A stretch of 64,000 nt of DNA from Elusimicrobia bacterium GWA2_62_23 (GTDB lineage: Bacteria; Elusimicrobiota; Elusimicrobia; Elusimicrobiales; UBA9959). Under the pieces are notes generated by a model, which was not told the DNA's origin, did not search any database, and saw only the letters and a list, made by a program, of their open reading frames with translations. The translations under genes and the position numbers were made by a program. Where the stretch lies: the NCBI GenBank assembly GCA_001799635.1, contig MGTV01000008.1, forward strand, positions 64,879 through 128,878, given 5' to 3'. Position 1 is the stretch's first letter, and the number at the start of each line of letters is the position of its first letter. Below, piece by piece: positions 4,750-63,196 of this stretch.

Positions 4750-5691
4750 ATGGAATTCGCGCTCGTTATAATCCTGCCTATGTTCCTGTTGATGGCCGGG
4801 TCCGGCATTCTGGTCGTTTCCCAGGTGTCGAGTTTCCTGCAGTCGAGTTCTCTCAACCAGCGGCAGCGTTTCGCCAACATGGTCATCCAGCAGTATATGA
4901 TCCAGATCGCCATGGCCCAGAGCCAGCTCTACCAGCGCTCCAGGCAGCTGGAGGCCCTTTCCAACAAGTTGGCCCTCTCCAACCAGGAACTGGCCGGCCT
5001 CAACGAGATGAAGTCCAAGTTCCTTTCCATGGTGGTGCACGACGTGCGCACACCCCTGGCGTCCATCCGCGGCTTCAGCGAGATGCTCATCAAGAAGGTC
5101 CCCGGGGAGCGGGAGGCCGCTTACCTCAGGAACATCGTCTCTTCCACGGACCAGCTGGGCCGCCTCATCGCCGACCTTACCGACCTGGCCATGATAGAGG
5201 CGGGAAAACTGAAGATGGAGAAGGCGGTCTTCGATTCCGCCGAATTGGCCCGGGACATCCTGCCGGCCCTCAGCATAAACGCCCAGAAGAAGGGCGTGGA
5301 ACTGGCGGCGGGGGAACTCACCGACGGGTTCCCCATAAACGGCGACAAGTTCCGCCTCAGCCAGGTGCTCATGAACCTGCTCAACAACGCCATCAAGTTC
5401 ACCCCGGTGGGCCGCCGCGTGGAACTCACCATGCGCCGCGAAGGCCGCGGCATAGGCGTGTACGTGAAGGACTCCGGCATAGGCATCCACCCCAGCGAGA
5501 CCAAGAAGATCTTCGAGAAGTTCTACCAGGCCAAATACCAGAAGGACGAGAAACTGCGCAAGCAGGGCTGGGGCCTGGGCCTGTCCATCGCCACGGAGAT
5601 CATCCGCTCCCACAAAGGGGAAATAGGGGCCACCAGCCCCGGCCTGGGCAAAGGTTCCACTTTCTATTTCAAGGTGCCGGCCGATTGCTGA
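4750..5691 (+). CDS. membrane sensor histidine kinase
   Basis: 313 aa from the ATG at 4750; an in-frame ATG at 4681 lies inside the previous gene. A hydrophobic segment (residues about 3-27) anchors it. Residues 35-88 form a coiled coil (QSQLYQRSRQLEALSNKL). H97 in VVHDVRTPL is the phosphorylated histidine of the HisKA domain. The HATPase domain follows with the N box (LMNLLNNAIKF), G1 box (VKDSGIGI) and G2 box (GWGLGLSIA). There is no periplasmic sensor domain, so input may come through the membrane segment or from the adjacent PorV-TPR protein. It sits between the PorV gene and the motor operon; likely partners are the two receivers at 2080 and 2462 (inference). Confidence 0.9.
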   Translation: MEFALVIILPMFLLMAGSGILVVSQVSSFLQSSSLNQRQRFANMVIQQYMIQIAMAQSQLYQRSRQLEALSNKLALSNQELAGLNEMKSKFLSMVVHDVRTPLASIRGFSEMLIKKVPGEREAAYLRNIVSSTDQLGRLIADLTDLAMIEAGKLKMEKAVFDSAELARDILPALSINAQKKGVELAAGELTDGFPINGDKFRLSQVLMNLLNNAIKFTPVGRRVELTMRREGRGIGVYVKDSGIGIHPSETKKIFEKFYQAKYQKDEKLRKQGWGLGLSIATEIIRSHKGEIGATSPGLGKGSTFYFKVPADC

Positions 5692-6535: not shown

Positions 6536-8160
6536 TATTTATGATGAAGACGCGGCGCGGGATAAATGCGGCGTTCGCGGCGGCCCTGGCGGCCGGCGCG
6601 CTCTGCTCTTTTGCCGCGGCCGCCGCCGCCCAGACCCTGCCGCTCGACGACAAGGCCCGCTACGAGAAGGCGCTGGAACAGAAGGTGGACGACGTGCTGC
6701 TGCAGCTGCTCGGCCCCAACCAGGCCAAGGTGGTGGTGCAGGCTACCATGGACTTCACCCGCACCGAAAAGGTAGACGTCGCTTCAGGAGTAAGGCAGAA
6801 AGAGGATAAAAGCGGGCTCTTCAAGTGGCAGACCGCCACAGCGGAAGCCGGTCAGCCGCTCAACGAGTATCTCCTGCCGGGATTCCCGGTTATGGAGCCC
6901 GGAGAGGGTGGTGGGGGGACCGATGGCAACAAGTCCTATCAGAAGCAGACGTCTTTCCCGGCTTCTTTCATAAAGAAACTCGTGGTGACCGTTATCGTCA
7001 ACAAGACCCTTCCCGACGCGGAGTCGCAGAATGTCCGCACGGTGGTCTCCGAGGTGCTCAGCCTCGACGCCCAGCGCGGCGACGAACTTTCCGTCATCCG
7101 CACCCCATTCGCCCCCGTCTGGCGCACCATCTGGTACACTCCGGAAGCCGTCAGCCTGGTCTTCAAGTACGGCATCCTTTCCCTTATAGGCATCATAGGC
7201 ATGATAGTGGTGGCGGTGGGCTTCCTCAAGCTGGCCGGCGCCATGAACACCATGGCCAAGGCCCAGCAGAGCCACCAGATCACCATGGACATGGCCAAGC
7301 AGGGCCTGGGCGGCCCCGGTCTGCCCGGCCTCCCCGGGGCAGCTGGGGGAGAAGCCGCCGCCGCCGGCGAGAAGAAGGACGGCGAAAAAGCAGGGGAAGG
7401 CGGCGAGGACGCCGAAAAGGCCCTTTTCAATATCAAGCCCGAGCACGTGGATTTCCTGGTGAAGCTGATGAGCGGAGAGGACCCCGCCAACGTCGCGCTG
7501 GTGGCGGCACATCTTTCCGAGGACGTTAAGAGCGAGTTCCTCCGCCGCCTGCCGGCCGATTTTTCCGCCGAAGTGGTGGCTAACATAGCGCAGATGCGTT
7601 TTGTGGAGCCGGAGGTCATAGCCACCATCCGCGAGGAGCTGGAAAAGCGCCTGGCCGGGGCTTTCGGCGGCGTGAATAAGGCCGTGGCCGCCATGGGGAA
7701 GGTCAGCCTCAGGGCCAAGAAGGAAATGCTGGCCAGCCTGGAGTTGCGCCACCCGGACCTGGCCCGCGAGGTGAGGCCCCGCATCTTCCTCGCCGACGAT
7801 CTGCTGAAACTGACCGACAAGGATATGTCCCTGCTGGCTACTTCCGTGAAACTGGAAGACTGGGCCCTGGCCCTCTGGGAACTCCCCGGGGAGATGCGGC
7901 CAAAGCTCAAGGCGCAGCTGGCCGATAAATCCTGGGCCATGCTGGAGCAGACCATGAAGTACGGCTCGCCTTCCGCCGAGAAGAAGGAGGCGGCCGTGGA
8001 GGGCATAGTGACCGCCGCGCTCAAACTGATGGACGAGGGCCGCATGGCCAACCCGCTGCGCGCCGAGGGCGACGCGCTGCCCGCCGAGGCCGCGCCCCGG
8101 CCGGCTTACACCGTGCCGCTGCCTCCTCCGCCCCCGGCCCCCCAAGGGGGTAACGCATGA
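6532..8160 (+). CDS. FliF (RBM3 part)-FliG fusion: predicted minimal rotor/MS-C ring protein
   Basis: 542 aa. Residues 1-34 form a signal peptide ending at Ala-Gln. Residues about 42-195 resemble the C-terminal ring-building domain of FliF (YscJ/FliF_C): LEQKVDDVLLQLLGPNQAKV, then SFIKKLVVTVIVNK and LDAQRGDELSVIRTPF, which matches the FliF RGDxVxVxxxPF ending. TM helix about 206-234. Gly/Pro linker 255-295. Residues about 298-378 resemble the FliG middle domain and 380-508 the FliG C domain (GGVNKAVAAM, RPRIFLADDLLKLTDKDM, ALALWELPGEMRPKLKAQL). A Pro-rich tail ends the protein. FliF N-terminal ring domains and its first TM helix are absent. Topology is right for a membrane rotor facing a MotA/MotB stator. 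It overlaps motA by 4 nt; ATGs at 6541 and 6544 are alternative starts. Confidence 0.88.
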   Translation: MIFMMKTRRGINAAFAAALAAGALCSFAAAAAAQTLPLDDKARYEKALEQKVDDVLLQLLGPNQAKVVVQATMDFTRTEKVDVASGVRQKEDKSGLFKWQTATAEAGQPLNEYLLPGFPVMEPGEGGGGTDGNKSYQKQTSFPASFIKKLVVTVIVNKTLPDAESQNVRTVVSEVLSLDAQRGDELSVIRTPFAPVWRTIWYTPEAVSLVFKYGILSLIGIIGMIVVAVGFLKLAGAMNTMAKAQQSHQITMDMAKQGLGGPGLPGLPGAAGGEAAAAGEKKDGEKAGEGGEDAEKALFNIKPEHVDFLVKLMSGEDPANVALVAAHLSEDVKSEFLRRLPADFSAEVVANIAQMRFVEPEVIATIREELEKRLAGAFGGVNKAVAAMGKVSLRAKKEMLASLELRHPDLAREVRPRIFLADDLLKLTDKDMSLLATSVKLEDWALALWELPGEMRPKLKAQLADKSWAMLEQTMKYGSPSAEKKEAAVEGIVTAALKLMDEGRMANPLRAEGDALPAEAAPRPAYTVPLPPPPPAPQGGNA

Positions 8161-9587
8161 GCTTCGGCCCCTCGGGAGGAACTCCCCGGAAAGATTCCAT
8201 TTTTTCCTCCATAGCCCCGGCCCAGCCAGCGCCGGCCCCGGCTCCCGCCGCGGCGCCGCGCCCGGCCATGGACGCCGAGGGCCTCGCCGCCCTCAAACAG
8301 AAGATAGACGTGATGGAAAAGAACATTGTGGCCCAGTTGGAGAAGAAACTGTCCGACCAGGCCAAGGCCCCCGCCGGGGCGCCGCCTCCTCCCGCTCCGG
8401 CCGCGCCGCCGGTCCCCGACATGTTCTTCCGCAAGATGGAGGACCTGGAACGCCGCCTCGCCGATTTCGGGCAGGCCGCCGCCGTGTCCGCTTCCCAGCT
8501 GCGCAACATCGAGGAGTCCAAGATCAGCGCCCGCCGCGAGATCGAGGACCTGTTGAAGGCCGTGCGCGACCAGCAGAAATACTCCGAGATGGACCGCCAG
8601 ATGCACGACCAGCTGGAGAAAGCCTGGACGCGCGCCGAAGAGCTCGAAAAGAAGCTGATGGATTTCTACTCCTCCGTCATCGCCATGGAGGCCAAGCGCC
8701 GCGACGACGCCGCGGCCTCTTCGGACAAGTCCGTGGCCGCCCTGGAGGCGCTCACCGCTCGGTTGGCCGCGCTGGAGCAGCGCCTGGCCGCGTCCCCCAT
8801 TGAACAGCTCGCCGGGGACATGCGCCGCGCCCAGGAGGAGTTCATGGCCCGGGCCGCGCGGGAGTCCTCCGCCATGCTGGCCGCCCAGGAAGCCGCCGCC
8901 CGCGACACCCTGGCGGGCTTCCGCGACGCTTCCGCGTCGCTGCGGGACTTCTTCGATAATAATTTCAGGCGCGAACTTAACGGCCTCTCCGAGCGCGTGG
9001 CCGGCGAGACCGCCGCCCTCCGCCGCGAACTGGCCGCTTCCCTGCAGGAGTCCCGCGACCTCCTGCGCGAACAGGGCGCCGCGGCCGCCGCCCGGACCGA
9101 CGAGTTCGGCAAGGTGCTGGAGGCGTCCCGGCTTAAGTCCGAGGCCGCCGAGGCCGCGTTGGAAGTCTCCGCCCGCCGCCAGGCGCTGGCCCTGGAGGAA
9201 TTCGCCCGCCGGCTGGACGCCGACCTGCGCGCCGTCAGCTCCGAATACCTGGCGGCCGCCAAGAAGGAGAACGACGAGCGCTTCGCCCGGTTCGGCGCCA
9301 AGTACGCCGACGCCCTCCTGTCCGTGACTTTCGTCGAGAATTTCCGCGCCGCTATCACCGCTTCCATTGACAGGCTGCAGGCCCATGAGGCCCGGATGAC
9401 GGAATTCCTGTCGCATGTTTCTCCGGTGCAGCTGGAGCGCCTGATGGGGGTTTCCGGCGAGGTGGTGCGCGAGCAGTTCGAGGCCATGGGGAACGCGACC
9501 GGCGAGCTTAAGGAAGACCTGGCCCGCCTGCGCGACATCAAGCGCGGCATAGAACAGAAGGTCCGCGACATCTTCGGAGAAAGCTAA
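8157..9587 (+). CDS. long cytoplasmic coiled-coil protein of the motor unit
   Basis: 476 aa, no signal peptide and no membrane segment. Residues 1-38 are Pro/Ala-rich with a short KDSIFSSIAP motif; a second Pro-rich linker lies near 68-86. Nearly all of 90-476 is predicted coiled coil rich in Ala, Glu, Arg and Leu (RRLADFGQAAAVSAS, LEALTARLAALEQRLA, LKEDLARLRDIKRGIEQK). It overlaps the rotor gene by an ATGA and the motB gene by one base, so stable co-expression is very likely. No known flagellar protein of this form is recognised. Plausible roles are a scaffold, a link from rotor to cytoplasmic cargo, or a switch/adaptor replacing FliM/FliN; these are guesses. Shared length and Pro-rich N-tail should make orthologues easy to find. 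Confidence 0.85.
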   Translation: MSFGPSGGTPRKDSIFSSIAPAQPAPAPAPAAAPRPAMDAEGLAALKQKIDVMEKNIVAQLEKKLSDQAKAPAGAPPPPAPAAPPVPDMFFRKMEDLERRLADFGQAAAVSASQLRNIEESKISARREIEDLLKAVRDQQKYSEMDRQMHDQLEKAWTRAEELEKKLMDFYSSVIAMEAKRRDDAAASSDKSVAALEALTARLAALEQRLAASPIEQLAGDMRRAQEEFMARAARESSAMLAAQEAAARDTLAGFRDASASLRDFFDNNFRRELNGLSERVAGETAALRRELAASLQESRDLLREQGAAAAARTDEFGKVLEASRLKSEAAEAALEVSARRQALALEEFARRLDADLRAVSSEYLAAAKKENDERFARFGAKYADALLSVTFVENFRAAITASIDRLQAHEARMTEFLSHVSPVQLERLMGVSGEVVREQFEAMGNATGELKEDLARLRDIKRGIEQKVRDIFGES

Positions 9588-30015: not shown

Positions 30016-30945
30016 ATGCTCAAATTACTCGCCACCCTCCTCTTCGCCGCCGTGCCGCTCGCCGCGCAGGAGGCCTCCACCTCCACCTACAACGAAGTGC
30101 CCGAAGAAGTGGTGATCCGCTCCGAATCCTCCGACGAGCTGCGCACCCGCAAGCCCCCGCTCAAGGTGAAAGCCGACAAGTTCGAAAGCGTGGCCAAATC
30201 CCTGGAAGCCGACAAAACCCTGTTCCGCTTCGAGTCAGCCGATTTCGTCTCGTTCTCCCGCAACCACCCTGAAAGACTCCAGAGCGGCCGCATCATAAAA
30301 CCCTGGCGCACCTCCTTCAGCGACAAGACCGTAATCACCTTCTCGCCGCGCCGCAAGTTCGAAGAGCTCTTCAGCCGCAACTATACCGAGAAGAATTCCA
30401 AGGACCTGCAGTGGACCCTCTCCGTTACCGACGAGGAAGGCAAGATCTTTCACAAGTATTCCGGCACCGGCCTGCCGCCGGAAACCCTCTCCTGGAGCGG
30501 CGAGAACGACGCCCGCGAGTGGGTGCGGGCCGGCCACAGCTACGCGCCGGTGTACGTCTTCGTGGACGAATACGGCTCCCCCAAGACCATCATAGGCGAA
30601 CTGGTGAAGTTCACCGCCATAGTCTTCCAGAAAGGCGGCAACCTTACCATCAGCCTGGACTCGGCTTCGCTCTTCGGCCCCAACAAGAGCGCCCGCGCCC
30701 TGGACAAGAAGGACGGCGAGGCCCTGCTCTCGGCCACGGCGGACCTGGTAAAGCGCCGCTACTACAACATGCCCCTGCGCGTTAAGGTTTACGCCCAGAC
30801 CAAGGACCTGGCCGACATCCAGGCCGACCTGGTGAAGGATTTCCTCAAGAAAGCCCTGATGTCGCCGGAGAACCTCCTGGCCGCCGAAGGCCAGGAAGAC
30901 TCCTACGCCCAGCAGCGCACCGACATAGTCCTGCTCAATAAATAG
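30016..30945 (+). CDS. secreted protein with divergent OmpA-like C-terminal domain
   Basis: 309 aa. A signal peptide ends at about residue 19 (LAAQ). The middle region (80-180) is beta-rich (TVITFSPRRKFEELF, LQWTLSVTDEEGKIFHKYSG). The last about 100 residues, SLFGPNKSARALDKKDGEALLSATADLVKRRYYNMPLRVKVYAQTKD and AQQRTDIVLLNK, have the strand-helix-strand order of OmpA/Pal domains, but the conserved Gly-His-Thr-Asp and Asn-x-x-Leu-Ser-x-x-Arg-Ala motifs are not kept. It is the last gene of the TonB unit and could link the complex to the cell wall. Its 3' end is duplicated at 32171-32253, beyond an inserted ATPase gene. Confidence 0.7.
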   Translation: MLKLLATLLFAAVPLAAQEASTSTYNEVPEEVVIRSESSDELRTRKPPLKVKADKFESVAKSLEADKTLFRFESADFVSFSRNHPERLQSGRIIKPWRTSFSDKTVITFSPRRKFEELFSRNYTEKNSKDLQWTLSVTDEEGKIFHKYSGTGLPPETLSWSGENDAREWVRAGHSYAPVYVFVDEYGSPKTIIGELVKFTAIVFQKGGNLTISLDSASLFGPNKSARALDKKDGEALLSATADLVKRRYYNMPLRVKVYAQTKDLADIQADLVKDFLKKALMSPENLLAAEGQEDSYAQQRTDIVLLNK

Positions 30946-30974
30946 CGCAGTAGACGGTGCTCACCATTATCATA

Positions 30975-31003
30975 TTGACAATTGTGAACGCATTCACTAT
31001 AAT
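30975..31003 (+). promoter_or_regulatory. consensus sigma-70 type promoter of the DUF4143 ATPase gene
   Basis: TTGACA at 30975-30980 and TATAAT at 30998-31003 are separated by exactly 17 nt. This is the cleanest promoter in the window. It sits in an AT-rich stretch unlike the flanking operon, and belongs to the inserted ATPase gene (ATG 31028, with AGGTGA at 31015-31020). Confidence 0.8.
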
Positions 31004-31027
31004 ATATGTGATTTAGGTGAATTGCGC

Positions 31028-32161
31028 ATGATAATAGAGAGAACAATTCTTGGTTCCATAGTTAAGGCCTTGTATAAAGGGAAGGTCCTTATATTGTATG
31101 GCGCCAGGCAGGTAGGCAAGACCACGCTGGTCCGCGAGATACAAGCCCTGCATAAGGCGGATTCTGTTTATCTCAATTGCGACGAGCCGGACATCCTTGC
31201 CGCTTTTTCCGGAAAGACTTCCACCCAGATGGGCGCGTTCATTGGGAACAAAAAACTTGTTATCCTTGACGAAGCCCAGCAGGTCCCCAACATAGGCCGC
31301 ACGCTGAAACTCCTGCACGACAGTTTCCCGCAGACGCAGCTGCTGGCCACGGGGTCCTCCTCCTTCGAACTGTCCGACAAGGTTTCGGAGCCTCTGACCG
31401 GCAGAAAGACGGAATTCACGCTTTATCCGTTCTCCGTGGGGGAACTGGCGGCCCGCTATTCGGCGCTGGAAGCCGGGCGCCTGCTGGAACGCCGCCTGCT
31501 CTACGGCATGTACCCGGAAATAGCCCTTAAGAGCGGCCACCCCGCCGAAGAGCTCAAGAGCCTGGCCCGCAGCTATTCCTACAAGGACGTCCTCAAATAT
31601 CACAACATCAGGAGCCATGAGCTCCTGGAGAAACTGCTGCAGGCGCTGGCCCTGCAGATAGGTTCCGAGGTCTCCTATAACGAACTGGCCTCCCTGCTGG
31701 GCGTGGACAAGAACACCGTGGCGTCCTACATCCAGATCCTGGAAAAGGCTTTTATAATTTTCCGCCTGGGGCCGTTCAGCCGCAACATCCGCAACGAACT
31801 TAAAAGGCTGCGGAAAATATATTTCTACGACACCGGCCTGCGCAACGCCCTTATTAACAACCTTAACCCGCTGAACCTGCGCCAGGACGCGGGGGCGCTC
31901 TGGGAAAATTTCCTGGTAGCGGAACGCCGCAAGTTCCTGGCCAACCACGGCCTGGACCGGCAGACCTATTTCTGGCGCACCCAGCAGCAGCAGGAGATAG
32001 ATTACCTTGAGACCGAGGGCGACTCGTTGCGCGCCTTCGAGATAAAATGGGGAAAGGTCAGGGTTAAACCCCCTAAAGTGTTCCAGGAAGCTTATCCGGA
32101 CGCCGTTTTTACCGGCGTTAACCGCGACAATTACCTGGCTTTCCTGACGCCTAAAAAATAA
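31028..32161 (+). CDS. AAA_14/DUF4143 family ATPase, inserted gene
   Basis: 377 aa from the ATG at 31028; a TTG at 31022 is also in frame. Walker A is GARQVGKTT (25-33), Walker B LVILDEAQQ with D81-E82, and the sensor region LATGSSSFEL follows. The C-terminal half is DUF4143 (YSYKDVLKYHNIRSHELLEKLLQALALQIGSEVSYNELASLLGVDKNTVASYIQILEKAFIIF), which includes a winged-helix part, ending with a nuclease-like stretch (TYFWRTQQQQEIDYLE...AFEIKWG). These proteins are widespread in mobile or accessory DNA; their role is not established. It carries its own promoter and is flanked on both sides by the 3' end of the OmpA-like gene, so it looks like a recent insert. Confidence 0.92.
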   Translation: MIIERTILGSIVKALYKGKVLILYGARQVGKTTLVREIQALHKADSVYLNCDEPDILAAFSGKTSTQMGAFIGNKKLVILDEAQQVPNIGRTLKLLHDSFPQTQLLATGSSSFELSDKVSEPLTGRKTEFTLYPFSVGELAARYSALEAGRLLERRLLYGMYPEIALKSGHPAEELKSLARSYSYKDVLKYHNIRSHELLEKLLQALALQIGSEVSYNELASLLGVDKNTVASYIQILEKAFIIFRLGPFSRNIRNELKRLRKIYFYDTGLRNALINNLNPLNLRQDAGALWENFLVAERRKFLANHGLDRQTYFWRTQQQQEIDYLETEGDSLRAFEIKWGKVRVKPPKVFQEAYPDAVFTGVNRDNYLAFLTPKK

Positions 32162-32170
32162 AAATCGAAT

Positions 32171-32253
32171 CCCAGGCCAAGGACCTGGCCGCCGAAGGCC
32201 AGGAAGACTCCTGCGCCCAGCAGCGCACCGACATAGTCCTTTTGAATAAATAG
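32171..32253 (+). pseudogene. duplicated, internally deleted 3' end of the OmpA-like gene at 30016
   Basis: Bases 32185-32253 match 30877-30945 at 65 of 69 positions, including the stop codon. The preceding 20 bases match 30794-30813 with one change. The 69 bases between these two parts in the parent are missing here, an in-frame loss between two CTGGCCG repeats. The reading frame is kept (AKDLAAEGQEDSCAQQR then TDIVLLNK and stop). It begins 9 nt after the ATPase stop and has no start codon. Confidence 0.88.
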
Positions 32254-32264
32254 CCGCGCCGGTT

Positions 32265-33695
32265 TTATTTTGCCCTCCAATGCCCGCCCCTGTCGGGGCC
32301 TATACGCTTTACAAGCCCCGCTTTTTTCAAAGACTCCAGTACGTTTTTGACACCCCTGTCTGAAATGCCAAGCAGGCTGGCCAATTCAGCTATGCTGATA
32401 TGGGGGTCGCTCTTTATAAGTTTCAATATTTTCTGGGAACTTTTCTGGGAACTTTTTAGTGAACTTTTTGCTGTTTTTCCATTGGTAGCTTTGAGTGAGT
32501 TTTTCTGGGAACCTTTCTGGGAACCCACAGCCAATTCCCGCCCTGCCGCCGCGGCCGAGCGCAGCACTATCCTGGTACCCGCAGACACGGAGTCTATGGC
32601 CGGGGGCGGGCCTCCGTGTTTTTTTATCATAGTGAACACCGAATGCAGCCCGCTGCCGATGTTCTCTATGAGCCCGATCTCCTTGAAGACGCGGGTTATG
32701 AGCGGGTTTCTGGCGCTGGGCGCATAATCTCCGGACTGGATCTTGTCCAGGGAGAGTCCCTTCGGCATTTCTCCCGGATTCCACATCTCTATACGGTCGT
32801 CGAAGATGAAAACGCAGGAGGGCGAGCCGTTGTGGTAGTCGCGGTGTACCACCAGGTTTATCACCAGCTCGCGCAAGGCCTCCGGCGGGTATTGCCACAC
32901 CGGGTCGTGGGTCAACTGTCGTGAAACCGGGGCCTTCTTCACCCCACGCTTTATGTTGCCCAGCATAAACGCCATTATCAGCTCTATCTCCGAAACCAGG
33001 TCTTCCTGTATGTAAAAATCCTCGGAGGATTCCTCTTTGTCCGTTCCTTTAAAGCGCACGGCGTGTACGGCAGCGCTGAGGGGAGTTGTTTTGCCGAAAA
33101 GCAGGCTGGCGGCGAAGGTGGGCGCTTTTTCCTCCCGCAGGAGGGAGAACTTTTTAAGCAGGGTAAATGAATCCTCCGGCAGCGCCGCCGCCGCCTGCTT
33201 TTCCAGCAAGTTCCTGAAACGCTCCACTTTTGCCGAGGCAAGGTCGCTGGTGCTTTTGCCGGGGTCCGGCAAACTGTCCCAGGACAGGTTGTAGGTTTTG
33301 AGATACATATCCGCTATTTCCTGAAGACTCATTAGGTGATTGGCCGCCCCGCGGCGCGCCAGGCAGCGGCCGCGCATTGACACCGGTTTTATGGGAACTT
33401 CCTTGATCGTGAACACGGCCACGCGGCTGTCTCCCGCCCGCAAGAAGTGGAGGTCCGGGTAAAGGGAAGGTGAAGTTTTCTGCTTTACCTCGTTAAGCCA
33501 GGCCGCCGCCCCTTGCTGCGACCATGCCACGCCGCAGATGACGCCGGCGTCTGTTACCCCGGCCAGCACCCGCCCTCCTCCGGAGTTGGCCATGGCCGCT
33601 AAAGTCTCTATAACCCCGTCCCCGAACGACTCTTTGAATTCCAGAACGGAGGATTCCCCATCCTTTATCAGCCGCAAGAGCTCTGCTGCCTGCAT
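32265..33695 (-). CDS. AlbA_2 (Schlafen-like) / RecG-type putative DNA-binding regulator
   Basis: 476 aa, with GAGGGAGG before the ATG. The N-terminus is an AlbA_2 domain: ESSVLEFKESFGDGVIETLAAMANSGGGRVLAGVTDAGVI. The middle (about 255-370) has the HATPase_c_4-type region, PPEALRELVINLVVHRDYHNGSPSCVFIFDDRIEMWNPGEMP then ENIGSGLHSVFTMIKKHGGPPP. A linker of repeated Ser-Gln-Lys units (about 393-425) leads to a C-terminal winged helix (ISIAELASLLGISDRGVKNVLESLKKAGLVKRIG). Such proteins are common accessory regulators; direct function is unknown. It stands alone on the minus strand between the ATPase insert and brnTA, with repeat copy B just upstream. Confidence 0.85.
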   Translation of the reverse strand: MQAAELLRLIKDGESSVLEFKESFGDGVIETLAAMANSGGGRVLAGVTDAGVICGVAWSQQGAAAWLNEVKQKTSPSLYPDLHFLRAGDSRVAVFTIKEVPIKPVSMRGRCLARRGAANHLMSLQEIADMYLKTYNLSWDSLPDPGKSTSDLASAKVERFRNLLEKQAAAALPEDSFTLLKKFSLLREEKAPTFAASLLFGKTTPLSAAVHAVRFKGTDKEESSEDFYIQEDLVSEIELIMAFMLGNIKRGVKKAPVSRQLTHDPVWQYPPEALRELVINLVVHRDYHNGSPSCVFIFDDRIEMWNPGEMPKGLSLDKIQSGDYAPSARNPLITRVFKEIGLIENIGSGLHSVFTMIKKHGGPPPAIDSVSAGTRIVLRSAAAAGRELAVGSQKGSQKNSLKATNGKTAKSSLKSSQKSSQKILKLIKSDPHISIAELASLLGISDRGVKNVLESLKKAGLVKRIGPDRGGHWRAK

Positions 33696-33821: not shown

Positions 33822-34100
33822 CTACTTGTGCTGCGCCGCTTGCGCGCGGTTCAGAAGCACCTCGTTGATGAACGTCTGGTACCCGATGCCGCGGTGCCTG
33901 GCCTCGGTGTGGGCCCAGGCCAGGGCCAGCGGGTGAAGGCGTATGTGGACGTCCCGGTACTTGGAGTCCCCTTTGGGGGGGCGGCCCCTGGCGGGGCGCT
34001 TTATCTGGAAAGTGTTCTCAATGGCCTTCTTGAAGGCTAGCGTTTCTTCCGGCGTGACCCTGCGAGCCCTGGCGAAATCAAAGTCTTTTGCTTTCTTCAT
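33822..34100 (-). CDS. brnA: BrnA-type antitoxin
   Basis: 92 aa. Its 5' end overlaps the toxin gene by 23 nt, the usual brnT-brnA layout. The C-terminal half is a ribbon-helix-helix type DNA-binding region (KYRDVHIRLHPLALAWAHTEARHRGIGYQTFINEVLLNRA), as in BrnA/CopG-like antitoxins. The N-terminal Lys/Arg-rich part (RPARGRPPKGDSKY) is like BrnA of other phyla. It should neutralise the BrnT encoded upstream and repress the pair. A clear terminator lies downstream. Confidence 0.85.
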   Translation of the reverse strand: MKKAKDFDFARARRVTPEETLAFKKAIENTFQIKRPARGRPPKGDSKYRDVHIRLHPLALAWAHTEARHRGIGYQTFINEVLLNRAQAAQHK

Positions 34101-34380
34101 AAATCCTTCTCTCGCGGCGGTTAGCGCGCCGCGCGCTTACTACCCGGATGTTCCCGTCCGGCGGCCGCATTGTGAACACTACTACCAGAACCTTTTCGCC
34201 TGAGTCCCCTATCAGCCAATGGCGGCGTTCATGGACGGAATGCTTTTCGTCGTCGACTACCAGGGCGAAAGGGTCGTCGAAGGCAAAAGCCGCCAGTTCG
34301 AAAGTTATCCCGTGCTTCAGGGCGTTGCGCTCTGCTTTCTTGCCGTCCCACTCGAACCTTACATTTATAGTGTACACCAT
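34078..34380 (-). CDS. brnT: BrnT-type ribonuclease toxin
   Basis: 100 aa. The BrnT pattern is plain: RFEWDGKKAERNALKHGITFELAAFAFDDPFAL near the start, HERRHWLIGDSGEKVLVVVFTMR in the middle and IRVVSARRANRRERRIYEE at the end. BrnT is a RelE-fold RNase that inhibits translation. The frame is intact. The start at 34380 (MVYTINVRFEWD) has no good ribosome site, but no better start is in frame before the conserved RFEWD. Palindromic repeat copy C lies 40 nt upstream. Confidence 0.9.
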   Translation of the reverse strand: MVYTINVRFEWDGKKAERNALKHGITFELAAFAFDDPFALVVDDEKHSVHERRHWLIGDSGEKVLVVVFTMRPPDGNIRVVSARRANRRERRIYEESKRL

Positions 34381-61480: not shown

Positions 61481-62632
61481 ATGCTGATAAAGCGTTCCCA
61501 TGCGCGGGGACATCTGGCCGCCGCGCTTAAACGCAGCCGTGTGGCCGCGCTTATAGGCCCGCGGCAATGCGGTAAGACCACGCTGGCCCGTCAGTTTGTA
61601 GAGGCTGACTCCCCTAACTATTTCGACCTTGAGGATCCCGCAAGCCTTGCCAGGCTGGCCGAGCCTAAGACCGCCCTTGCCGGACTTAAGGGGATAGTAG
61701 TAATAGATGAGATCCAGCGCCGCCCGGAATTATTCCCGGTTCTCCGCGTGCTGGCGGACCGCAAGCCGCTGCCCGCCCGCTTTCTTATCCTCGGCAGCGC
61801 GGCCCCTGAACTTCTGCGGCAGTCTTCCGAATCCTTGGCCGGCCGCCTTGAACTGATCCCTCTCTCCGGCCTCAGCCTGGCCGAGGTGGGGAAAAAGCGG
61901 CAACCCCTGCACTGGTTAAGGGGGGGATTCCCTCCGTCCTTCCTGGCGGCCTCGGAGGCCGACAGCCTGGCCTGGCGGCGTAATTTCATCCAGACCTTTC
62001 TCGAGCGCGATCTGCACCAGTGGGGCATAGGCGTGCCCCCCGCGGCGCTTATGCGTTTTTGGGCCATGCTGGCGCATTACCACGGCCAGATCTGGAACGC
62101 CGCCGAGCCGGCCAAAGCTCTAGGGATAAGCGAGCCCACCGTGCGCAAGTACCTGGATATACTTTCCGGCATCTTCATGGTGCGGCAGCTTCAACCGTGG
62201 CACGCCAATCTTAAAAAACGCCAGGTAAAAGCGCCTAAAATATATTTCCGCGACAGCGGCCTGCTTCACCAGATGCTGGGCATACGCTCTGAACGGGAAC
62301 TTTTTAACCACCCAAAATACGGCGCGTCCTGGGAAGGGTACGCCGTGGAGGAGGCCATAAAGGCCGCGGCTCCGGACGAAGCCTACTACTGGGCCACCCA
62401 TAACGGCGCGGAGATAGATTTGCTGCTGGTGAAGAACGGGAAAATGACCGGCGTGGACTGCAAGCGGGTTGACGCGCCGCATCTGACCCCCTCCATGGGG
62501 ATAGCTCTGCGGGACCTGGGCCTGGAACGCATATTTGTAGTATACCCCGGCTCCAGAAAATATGACATAACCGATAAAATAACTGCTCTCCCTTTTGATT
62601 CTCTCGCAACGGGGGAAAAAGCTTTTTCCTGA
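61481..62632 (+). CDS. AAA_14/DUF4143 family ATPase, second insert
   Basis: 383 aa from ATG 61481 (MLIKRSHARG); an upstream ATG at 61454 precedes the -10 box. Walker A GPRQCGKTT (26-34) and Walker B GIVVIDEIQRRPELFPVL, then LGSAAPELLRQ. The DUF4143 half has FIQTFLERDLHQWG, WNAAEPAKALGISEPTVRKYLDILSGIFMVRQLQ (winged helix) and ENGAEIDLLLVKNGKM-like nuclease end (HNGAEIDLLLV, GVDCKRVD). It is clearly a different lineage from the copy at 31028. It splits the polysaccharide genes between the initiating transferase and rfbC. No duplicated flank is seen here. Confidence 0.93.
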   Translation: MLIKRSHARGHLAAALKRSRVAALIGPRQCGKTTLARQFVEADSPNYFDLEDPASLARLAEPKTALAGLKGIVVIDEIQRRPELFPVLRVLADRKPLPARFLILGSAAPELLRQSSESLAGRLELIPLSGLSLAEVGKKRQPLHWLRGGFPPSFLAASEADSLAWRRNFIQTFLERDLHQWGIGVPPAALMRFWAMLAHYHGQIWNAAEPAKALGISEPTVRKYLDILSGIFMVRQLQPWHANLKKRQVKAPKIYFRDSGLLHQMLGIRSERELFNHPKYGASWEGYAVEEAIKAAAPDEAYYWATHNGAEIDLLLVKNGKMTGVDCKRVDAPHLTPSMGIALRDLGLERIFVVYPGSRKYDITDKITALPFDSLATGEKAFS

Positions 62633-62653: not shown

Positions 62654-63196
62654 ATGAAATTTGTCTTTAGGAAAACCGTGATCGCGGGCCTGGTGGTAGT
62701 TAAGCCCGAGGTGGGGCAGGACGAGCGGGGAACCTTCTCCGAGAACTATAAAGCCTCCGAGTTCCGCAAAGCCGGCATTAAGACGCTTTTCGTGCAGGAG
62801 AACCGCTCGGTTTCCCGCCGGAACGTGCTGCGGGGGCTGCATTACCAGCGCCCGCCACACTCCCAGGCCAAGCTGGTGCGCTGCGGCCAGGGCCGCATCT
62901 TCGAGGTGGCGGTGGACCTGCGGCCCGGTTCCAGGACCTTCGCAAAGCATTACTCGCTGGAGCTTTCGGCGGCCAACGGCCTTATGCTTTATATCCCCGA
63001 AGGCTTCGCCCACGGCTTTTACGCGCTTACGGATAAGGCCGAAGTGATGTACAAGTGTTCGCGCGAATACGCGCCCTCTCACGACGCCGGCGTGCGCTGG
63101 AACGACCCCGCGCTGAAGATAAAGTGGCCGTGCAAACGCCCGGTGCTGTCGCCAAAGGATAAGGCGCTGCCCTTCCTGGCGGAGCGCGGCAAATAG
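62654..63196 (+). CDS. rfbC: dTDP-4-dehydrorhamnose 3,5-epimerase
   Basis: 180 aa. Cupin fold with the catalytic His in [10 protein letters not shown] and Tyr in [29 protein letters not shown] and [11 protein letters not shown] are signature motifs. The enzyme epimerises dTDP-4-keto-6-deoxyglucose in dTDP-L-rhamnose synthesis. It is followed 7 nt later by rfbA; rfbB and rfbD probably lie past the window end. The pathway predicts rhamnose or a related deoxysugar in the polymer. Confidence 0.96.

Follow-up and report, generated by a model that had tools for sequence, protein, structure and literature searches.

The window, by which we mean the whole analysed stretch of 64,000 nucleotides, lies on contig MGTV01000008.1 of Elusimicrobia bacterium GWA2_62_23 (genome G000). 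A TPR-ExbB-ExbD-ExbD-TonB cluster ends there with an intact gene, called the target gene below, which is followed by an ATPase gene with its own promoter and by a second copy of the target gene's 3′ end. An SLFN gene, then a BrnT module and then a polysaccharide locus separate this copy from an rfbC-type gene that stands 30 kb away. The features, with the basis of each in brackets, are:

30016–30945, plus strand: target gene, 309 aa, intact (open reading frame list; orthologs in relatives)
30794–30946, plus strand: left copy of the duplicated target segment, containing the gene 3′ end with its stop (repeat search, whole-genome search, copy comparison)
30807–30883, plus strand: 8-bp repeats CCTGGCCG (30807–30814 and 30876–30883) bounding 69 nt that are absent from the right copy (direct reading)
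30947–32170, plus strand: putatively inserted cassette of about 1.22 kb, promoter/operator and ATPase gene (edges set by the two copies; absent in the sister genome G025)
30960–31022, plus strand: promoter overlaid by TTCAC/GTGAA inverted half-sites, operator-like (direct reading, upstream comparison of relatives)
31028–32161, plus strand: AAA_14-DUF4143 ATPase of the PADLOC candidate defence family PDC-S01, 377 aa, ATG at 31028 (Pfam, PADLOC profile, motifs, model)
32171–32254, plus strand: right copy of the gene end; 69 nt are deleted from it, and its differences are mostly derived here (repeat search, copy comparison)
32265–33695, minus strand: SLFN_AlbA_2 gene, directly beyond the right copy (Pfam)
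33822–34380, minus strand: BrnT toxin gene (34078–34380) and a short partner ORF (gene annotation of the region)
34503–61375, no strand assigned: polysaccharide-type locus between the ATPase gene and rfbC, its first part syntenic with G013 (comparison with relatives)
61481–62632, plus strand: second AAA_14-DUF4143 gene, only distantly related (about 28% identical) and directly upstream of rfbC (sequence comparison)
62654–63196, plus strand: rfbC-type gene; in G025 it is the next gene after the target gene, in G030 the next after the ATPase gene (comparison with relatives)

The product of the target gene had been called OmpA-like in an earlier note on this DNA; the 309-aa protein matched no Pfam family at E ≤ 0.001, which leaves that name without Pfam support. 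Within the part of the SLFN gene that codes for the C-terminus, 12-nt direct repeats (TTTCTGGGAACT) were seen at 32430–32536. No flanking repeat was detected around the second DUF4143 gene at the far end of the polysaccharide locus.

The repeat search returned a 71-nt direct repeat (30876–30946 and 32184–32254) with 67/71 identical positions (94%, 4 mismatches), and a second block of 21 nt (30794–30814 and 32171–32191; 20/21, 95%) whose source lies 69 nt further upstream in the target gene. Similarity ends 1 base past the stop codon in both copies. When the whole genome was searched, the 71-nt match had E = 7.6e-25 and the next, unrelated match E = 1e-4. Altogether the copies differ by 4 substitutions in the 71 nt, by 1 more upstream and by the deletion in the right copy, which is in frame and looks like a slippage event, because the missing stretch sits between two CCTGGCCG octamers. 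Replacement changes from Tyr to Cys and from Thr to Ala are derived in the right copy; three further differences, at Leu-Leu codons, are silent and are probably derived there too, with two of the three matching G030. The earlier note had reported the gene end after the ATPase at 65/69 identity, 20 further upstream bases with an in-frame loss of 69 nt, and a perfect promoter belonging to the cassette. Its alignment is the one extended here to 67/71, its additional bases and loss were recovered as the 20/21-nt match and the CCTGGCCG-bounded gap, and the promoter was confirmed as a consensus −35 element TTGACA (30975–30980), a 17-nt spacer and a −10 element TATAAT (30998–31003).

The ATPase matched the PADLOC profile PDLC04789 (PDC-S01) with 505.7 bits (E = 1.8e-152) over residues 3–375 of 379, and both Pfam families, AAA_14 and DUF4143, scored above cut-off. 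Invariant residues are G32, K33, T34, T35 and D83, E84 (Walker A/B), E325, D327 and K342, and E340 is nearly invariant. The C-terminal domain has an intact, conserved E/D...ExK motif, from which, together with general knowledge of the domain, we take it to be a PD-(D/E)XK-type nuclease. Structure prediction gave a confident AAA+ model (mean pLDDT 89). No solved structure matching the protein by sequence was found, and a fold search with the model pointed to general AAA+ proteins, the best (TM about 0.5) being 2fna and 2qen, both archaeal ATPases, and MuB and Avs (STAND defence) ranking lower; such predicted fold neighbours are not enough for choosing a mechanism. Plasmids and phages searched for relatives of the ATPase gave only matches below 60% identity, and no vehicle was found among them. 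PDC-S01 (AAA_14-DUF4143, COG1373) has been described as ranking fourth in frequency among prokaryotic defence systems, with transfers across domains, and most PDCs still await validation (PMC12988326). Because the family is a candidate defence family, the ATPase probably serves the cell in defence. The literature searched on PDC-S01 held no account of an insertion signature or an operator.

Clear orthologs of the target gene were found in 12 other genomes, 11 of the same genus and G033 of the same family (a match in G015 reached 31% only), and no second gene end was found in any of the 12. In the sister genome G025 the target stop overlaps the rfbC start (AAATGAAATTTG), with neither ATPase nor second tail. 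G013 has a polysaccharide locus after the target gene, and in G030 the order is target gene, ATPase, rfbC, where the ATPase is 97% identical in amino acids, its stop overlaps the rfbC start and there is no tail copy. What lies between the target gene and rfbC thus varies within the genus, the arrangements in G025, G013, G030 and the window being different; empty and occupied sites are compared here between related genomes of the genus. The comparison with ATPase-less genomes proposed in the earlier note was thereby carried out and yielded, in G025, a single gene end and no ATPase; the relatives had neither an adjacent second whole copy of the gene nor a tail without the insert, the two arrangements which that note had named as contrary evidence. 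For two other loci, L202 and L214, empty sites were sought via their target genes, and no close orthologs were found in the genus.

Between G000 and G030, dS was 0.26 (0.19–0.34) for the ATPase gene and 0.48 (0.435–0.534) for five operon genes; given the lower value, the ATPase gene probably moved between the two lineages after their split. Between G000 and G025, dS was 0.20–0.40. Had the right copy decayed neutrally since the G025 split, more than the four changes seen in 71 sites would be expected; the duplication therefore appears to postdate that split, and the insertion in G030 appears to be a separate one. A young age could also be simulated by gene conversion between the two copies, and a stretch of 71 nt gives little evidence.

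Flanking duplication was then examined as a property of the family. DNA on the two sides of each ORF (400 nt per side) was compared for 159 DUF4143 ORFs and for 399 other ORFs of the same loci. In a first set of 61 close ATPase relatives from many phyla, the score between a gene's own flanks was at least 16 in ten, and cross-locus controls never exceeded 15. At a score of at least 19, direct repeats flanked 28/159 (18%) DUF4143 ORFs and 8/399 (2%) other ORFs (p = 3e-10); at a score of at least 25, the counts were 22/159 and 3/399. The Elusimicrobiota set alone gave 18/80 against 2/184 (p = 1e-8). When only ORFs bordered on each side by intergenic DNA were kept, the contrast was weaker (14/79 against 4/93, p = 0.004). 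No such repeats were found around SLFN_AlbA_2 genes (0/28, and 0/30 in the count that also covered RhuM genes) or around ABC-type genes (0/29). PF13304 was rejected as a mobile-gene control, its matches being mostly ABC-type ATPases, and serves only as an ordinary-gene control.

The repeats around DUF4143 genes are 21–247 nt long (median 52). Those of different loci are unrelated to each other and the targets share no sequence; the repeats abut the cassette, the left copy ending just upstream of the promoter and the right copy beginning soon after the stop. Repeats derived from coding sequence, in which a neighbouring gene end is copied, occurred in 11/159 DUF4143 loci and in 2/399 controls (p = 3e-5). 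At L207, L214, L245 and L196 the ends of neighbour genes, stop codons included, are part of the repeats, in both orientations, and translations gave an intact gene end on one side and a remnant with the same stop on the other, with neighbours in either orientation. Repeats at L096, L128, L080 and L209 look dispersed or simple rather than like target duplications and are to be discounted, and 131/159 (82%) of the DUF4143 genes tested have no flanking repeat.

Long flanking direct repeats, up to 216 nt, were also found in 4/49 loci of RhuM genes (PF13310, PADLOC PDC-S05). The four genes, with repeats of 44–216 nt, are:

L335, 1273–2733: RhuM gene
L374, 1099–2085: RhuM gene
L365, 1558–2568: RhuM gene
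L107, 5467–6444: RhuM gene

The longest of these repeats covers the apparent 5′ end of a neighbour gene. One SoFic gene had a 24-nt flanking repeat, and at L100 two copies of a 247-nt stretch (4937–5183 and 7928–8174), which contains a DUF4143 ATPase gene end, enclose a 696-aa ORF that matched nothing in Pfam or PADLOC. Separately, a HipA gene at L098 (1959–3188) was seen to be flanked by a repeated tRNA 3′ end. The duplication signature is not unique to DUF4143 and may stem from the way in which several single-gene cassettes enter chromosomes and not from something that the DUF4143 protein does; because RhuM genes have the same signature, DUF4143 genes need not encode the process. A recurrent long target duplication as a property of DUF4143 genes is, within these limits, supported by the sequences compared. 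The earlier note had called the locus a snapshot of how DUF4143 genes move and had suggested the search for flanking duplications at other such genes. With 28 of 159 positive, recurrent insertion with gene-end duplication stands; as a full account of their movement the snapshot falls short, in view of the 82% without a repeat, of G030 and of RhuM.

Upstream of ATPase relatives in many phyla the promoter is likewise overlaid by inverted half-sites. Significant inverted repeats (p ≤ 0.05) preceded 49/132 DUF4143 genes and 17/181 control ORFs, and a forward-reverse-forward array of half-sites was found in 26/51 members of the close subfamily against 20/765 shuffles (2.6%), usually with spacings of 11 and 6 nt. 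The half-site sequence varies by locus (TCCCCTAA, TCACCTAA, TGACTAAA, TATCCGAA), and changes in concert at its three places in the array. The array in the window itself is weaker (score 19). In the upstream regions of L079–L134, from many phyla, three half-sites at near-constant spacing were seen to agree within a locus and to differ between loci. The exact promoter pattern of the window was matched, among 61 genomes, only in G000 and G030, and was rejected as a general mark of the cassette; it is the architecture that is general. From the half-site arrays we infer that the regulator which reads the putative operator differs from cassette to cassette; the simplest candidate is the ATPase protein itself.

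With a probability of about 0.7, the locus is best explained by insertion of a single-gene cassette at the 3′ end of the target gene with duplication of about 150 nt of target, the right copy of which is decaying. A self-contained cassette, bringing its own promoter, operator and PDC-S01 ATPase-nuclease gene, would have entered the gene's 3′ end, and the same event would have duplicated the target segment. The left copy would keep the target gene whole, and the right copy would be a non-functional scar, decaying by substitutions and by the 69-nt slippage deletion. Insertion and duplication are inferred to be one event, in which a wide staggered break, or a repair-synthesis step across the target, would yield the long duplication and only insertions that spare the neighbour gene would survive. 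The break may be the work of the cassette's own PD-(D/E)XK-type domain, of a vehicle or of host repair. Duplication is not obligatory, because in G030 the ATPase occupies this site and no tail copy accompanies it.

The polysaccharide locus suggests another origin for the right copy. If the ATPase gene was already in place, an imported block comprising a related target end and the SLFN, BrnT and polysaccharide genes could have been joined to the ATPase end by illegitimate recombination and, at its other end, by homologous recombination. The polysaccharide locus is indeed present in G000 and G013 and absent at the site in G025 and G030, G030 has target gene, ATPase and rfbC in a row without it, and the three silent differences between the copies are what is expected if the right copy was recently still coding. 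The right copy, however, resembles the left copy far more than it resembles any relative, which means that the donor would have had to be nearly conspecific, and recurrence at many unrelated DUF4143 loci would be left unexplained; we regard this exchange as unlikely. Homologous recombination on one side only, in which a donor brought a target end with the ATPase, the other side was joined illegitimately and the right copy is the host's original gene end, would agree with the lower dS of the ATPase gene relative to the operon in the comparison with G030, which points to transfer after divergence. The target gene is nevertheless G025-like to its end (last 100 nt about 90% identical, against 83% to G030), with no donor segment beside the ATPase, and the donor would need a cassette at the same site, which is improbable for many different targets; this makes the reading very unlikely.

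In a further scenario the target gene would first have been duplicated in tandem, the ATPase would then have entered between the two copies, and the second copy would have been largely lost. This has a hint of precedent in G021, where a second, paralogous target copy stands elsewhere. It is highly improbable all the same, as it needs three events, no relative has a tandem copy, and many loci have partial duplications that abut the cassette. That the flanks are merely repeat-rich or misassembled is scarcely credible: the genomes are mostly metagenome-assembled and some loci (L096, L128) do have dispersed repeats on both sides, but substitutions and a deletion distinguish the two copies in the window, no further occurrence of the repeat was found in the genome, and 11 repeats of the family copy neighbour gene ends.

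Insertion with target duplication shares traits with several known systems. In classical (DDE) transposons and IS elements a target duplication flanks the insert, as here, but its length is short and fixed, whereas the duplications around DUF4143 genes vary in length over the range given above. No transposase was found in the 1.22-kb insert, in which the ATPase gene is the only plausible gene. When the cassette edges of about 25 loci were read side by side, no common end or shared terminal inverted repeat, beyond any very short one, was seen, and inverted flank matches occurred in 5/159 DUF4143 loci. Integrase elements at gene or tRNA 3′ ends regenerate the gene end on insertion, as here; the insert contains no integrase gene, and no conserved attachment site was found, the repeats of different loci being unrelated. 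Non-LTR retroelements use a reverse transcriptase and an RNA intermediate, whereas the present insert carries a promoter upstream of its transcript and no reverse transcriptase was found in it. Single RhuM genes likewise have long flanking direct repeats, but with an unrelated protein and at lower frequency (4/49). The nearest published parallel is that of transposed genes in Arabidopsis, where flanking direct repeats were found in 17% of 126 transposed and 6% of 102 non-transposed genes (PMC2869330). There too, whole genes moved without transposon ends and the repeats were mostly derived from the target (PMC2869330); those are plant nuclear genes of many families, whereas the present case concerns one prokaryotic family with its own promoter cassette.

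One reading goes further and holds PDC-S01 genes to be autonomous mobile elements, whose AAA+ PD-(D/E)XK-type protein would open the target, make widely spaced cuts in it and insert its own gene with long, variable duplications. We consider it quite unlikely; if true, self-insertion of PDC-S01 would be a mode of transposition unlike that of known DNA transposons. The half-sites that vary together across phyla suggest that every such gene carries along a switch of its own that is probably self-recognised. Single-gene defence candidates of the PDC-S01 kind are among the most widespread in prokaryotes and move across phyla without integrase or transposase, and the recurrent scar is a rare trace of genome entry without a known transposase. 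A target-duplication scar beside a promoter-plus-gene cassette makes entry into the chromosome testable, with sequence data and at the bench, and offers a marker for recent acquisitions.
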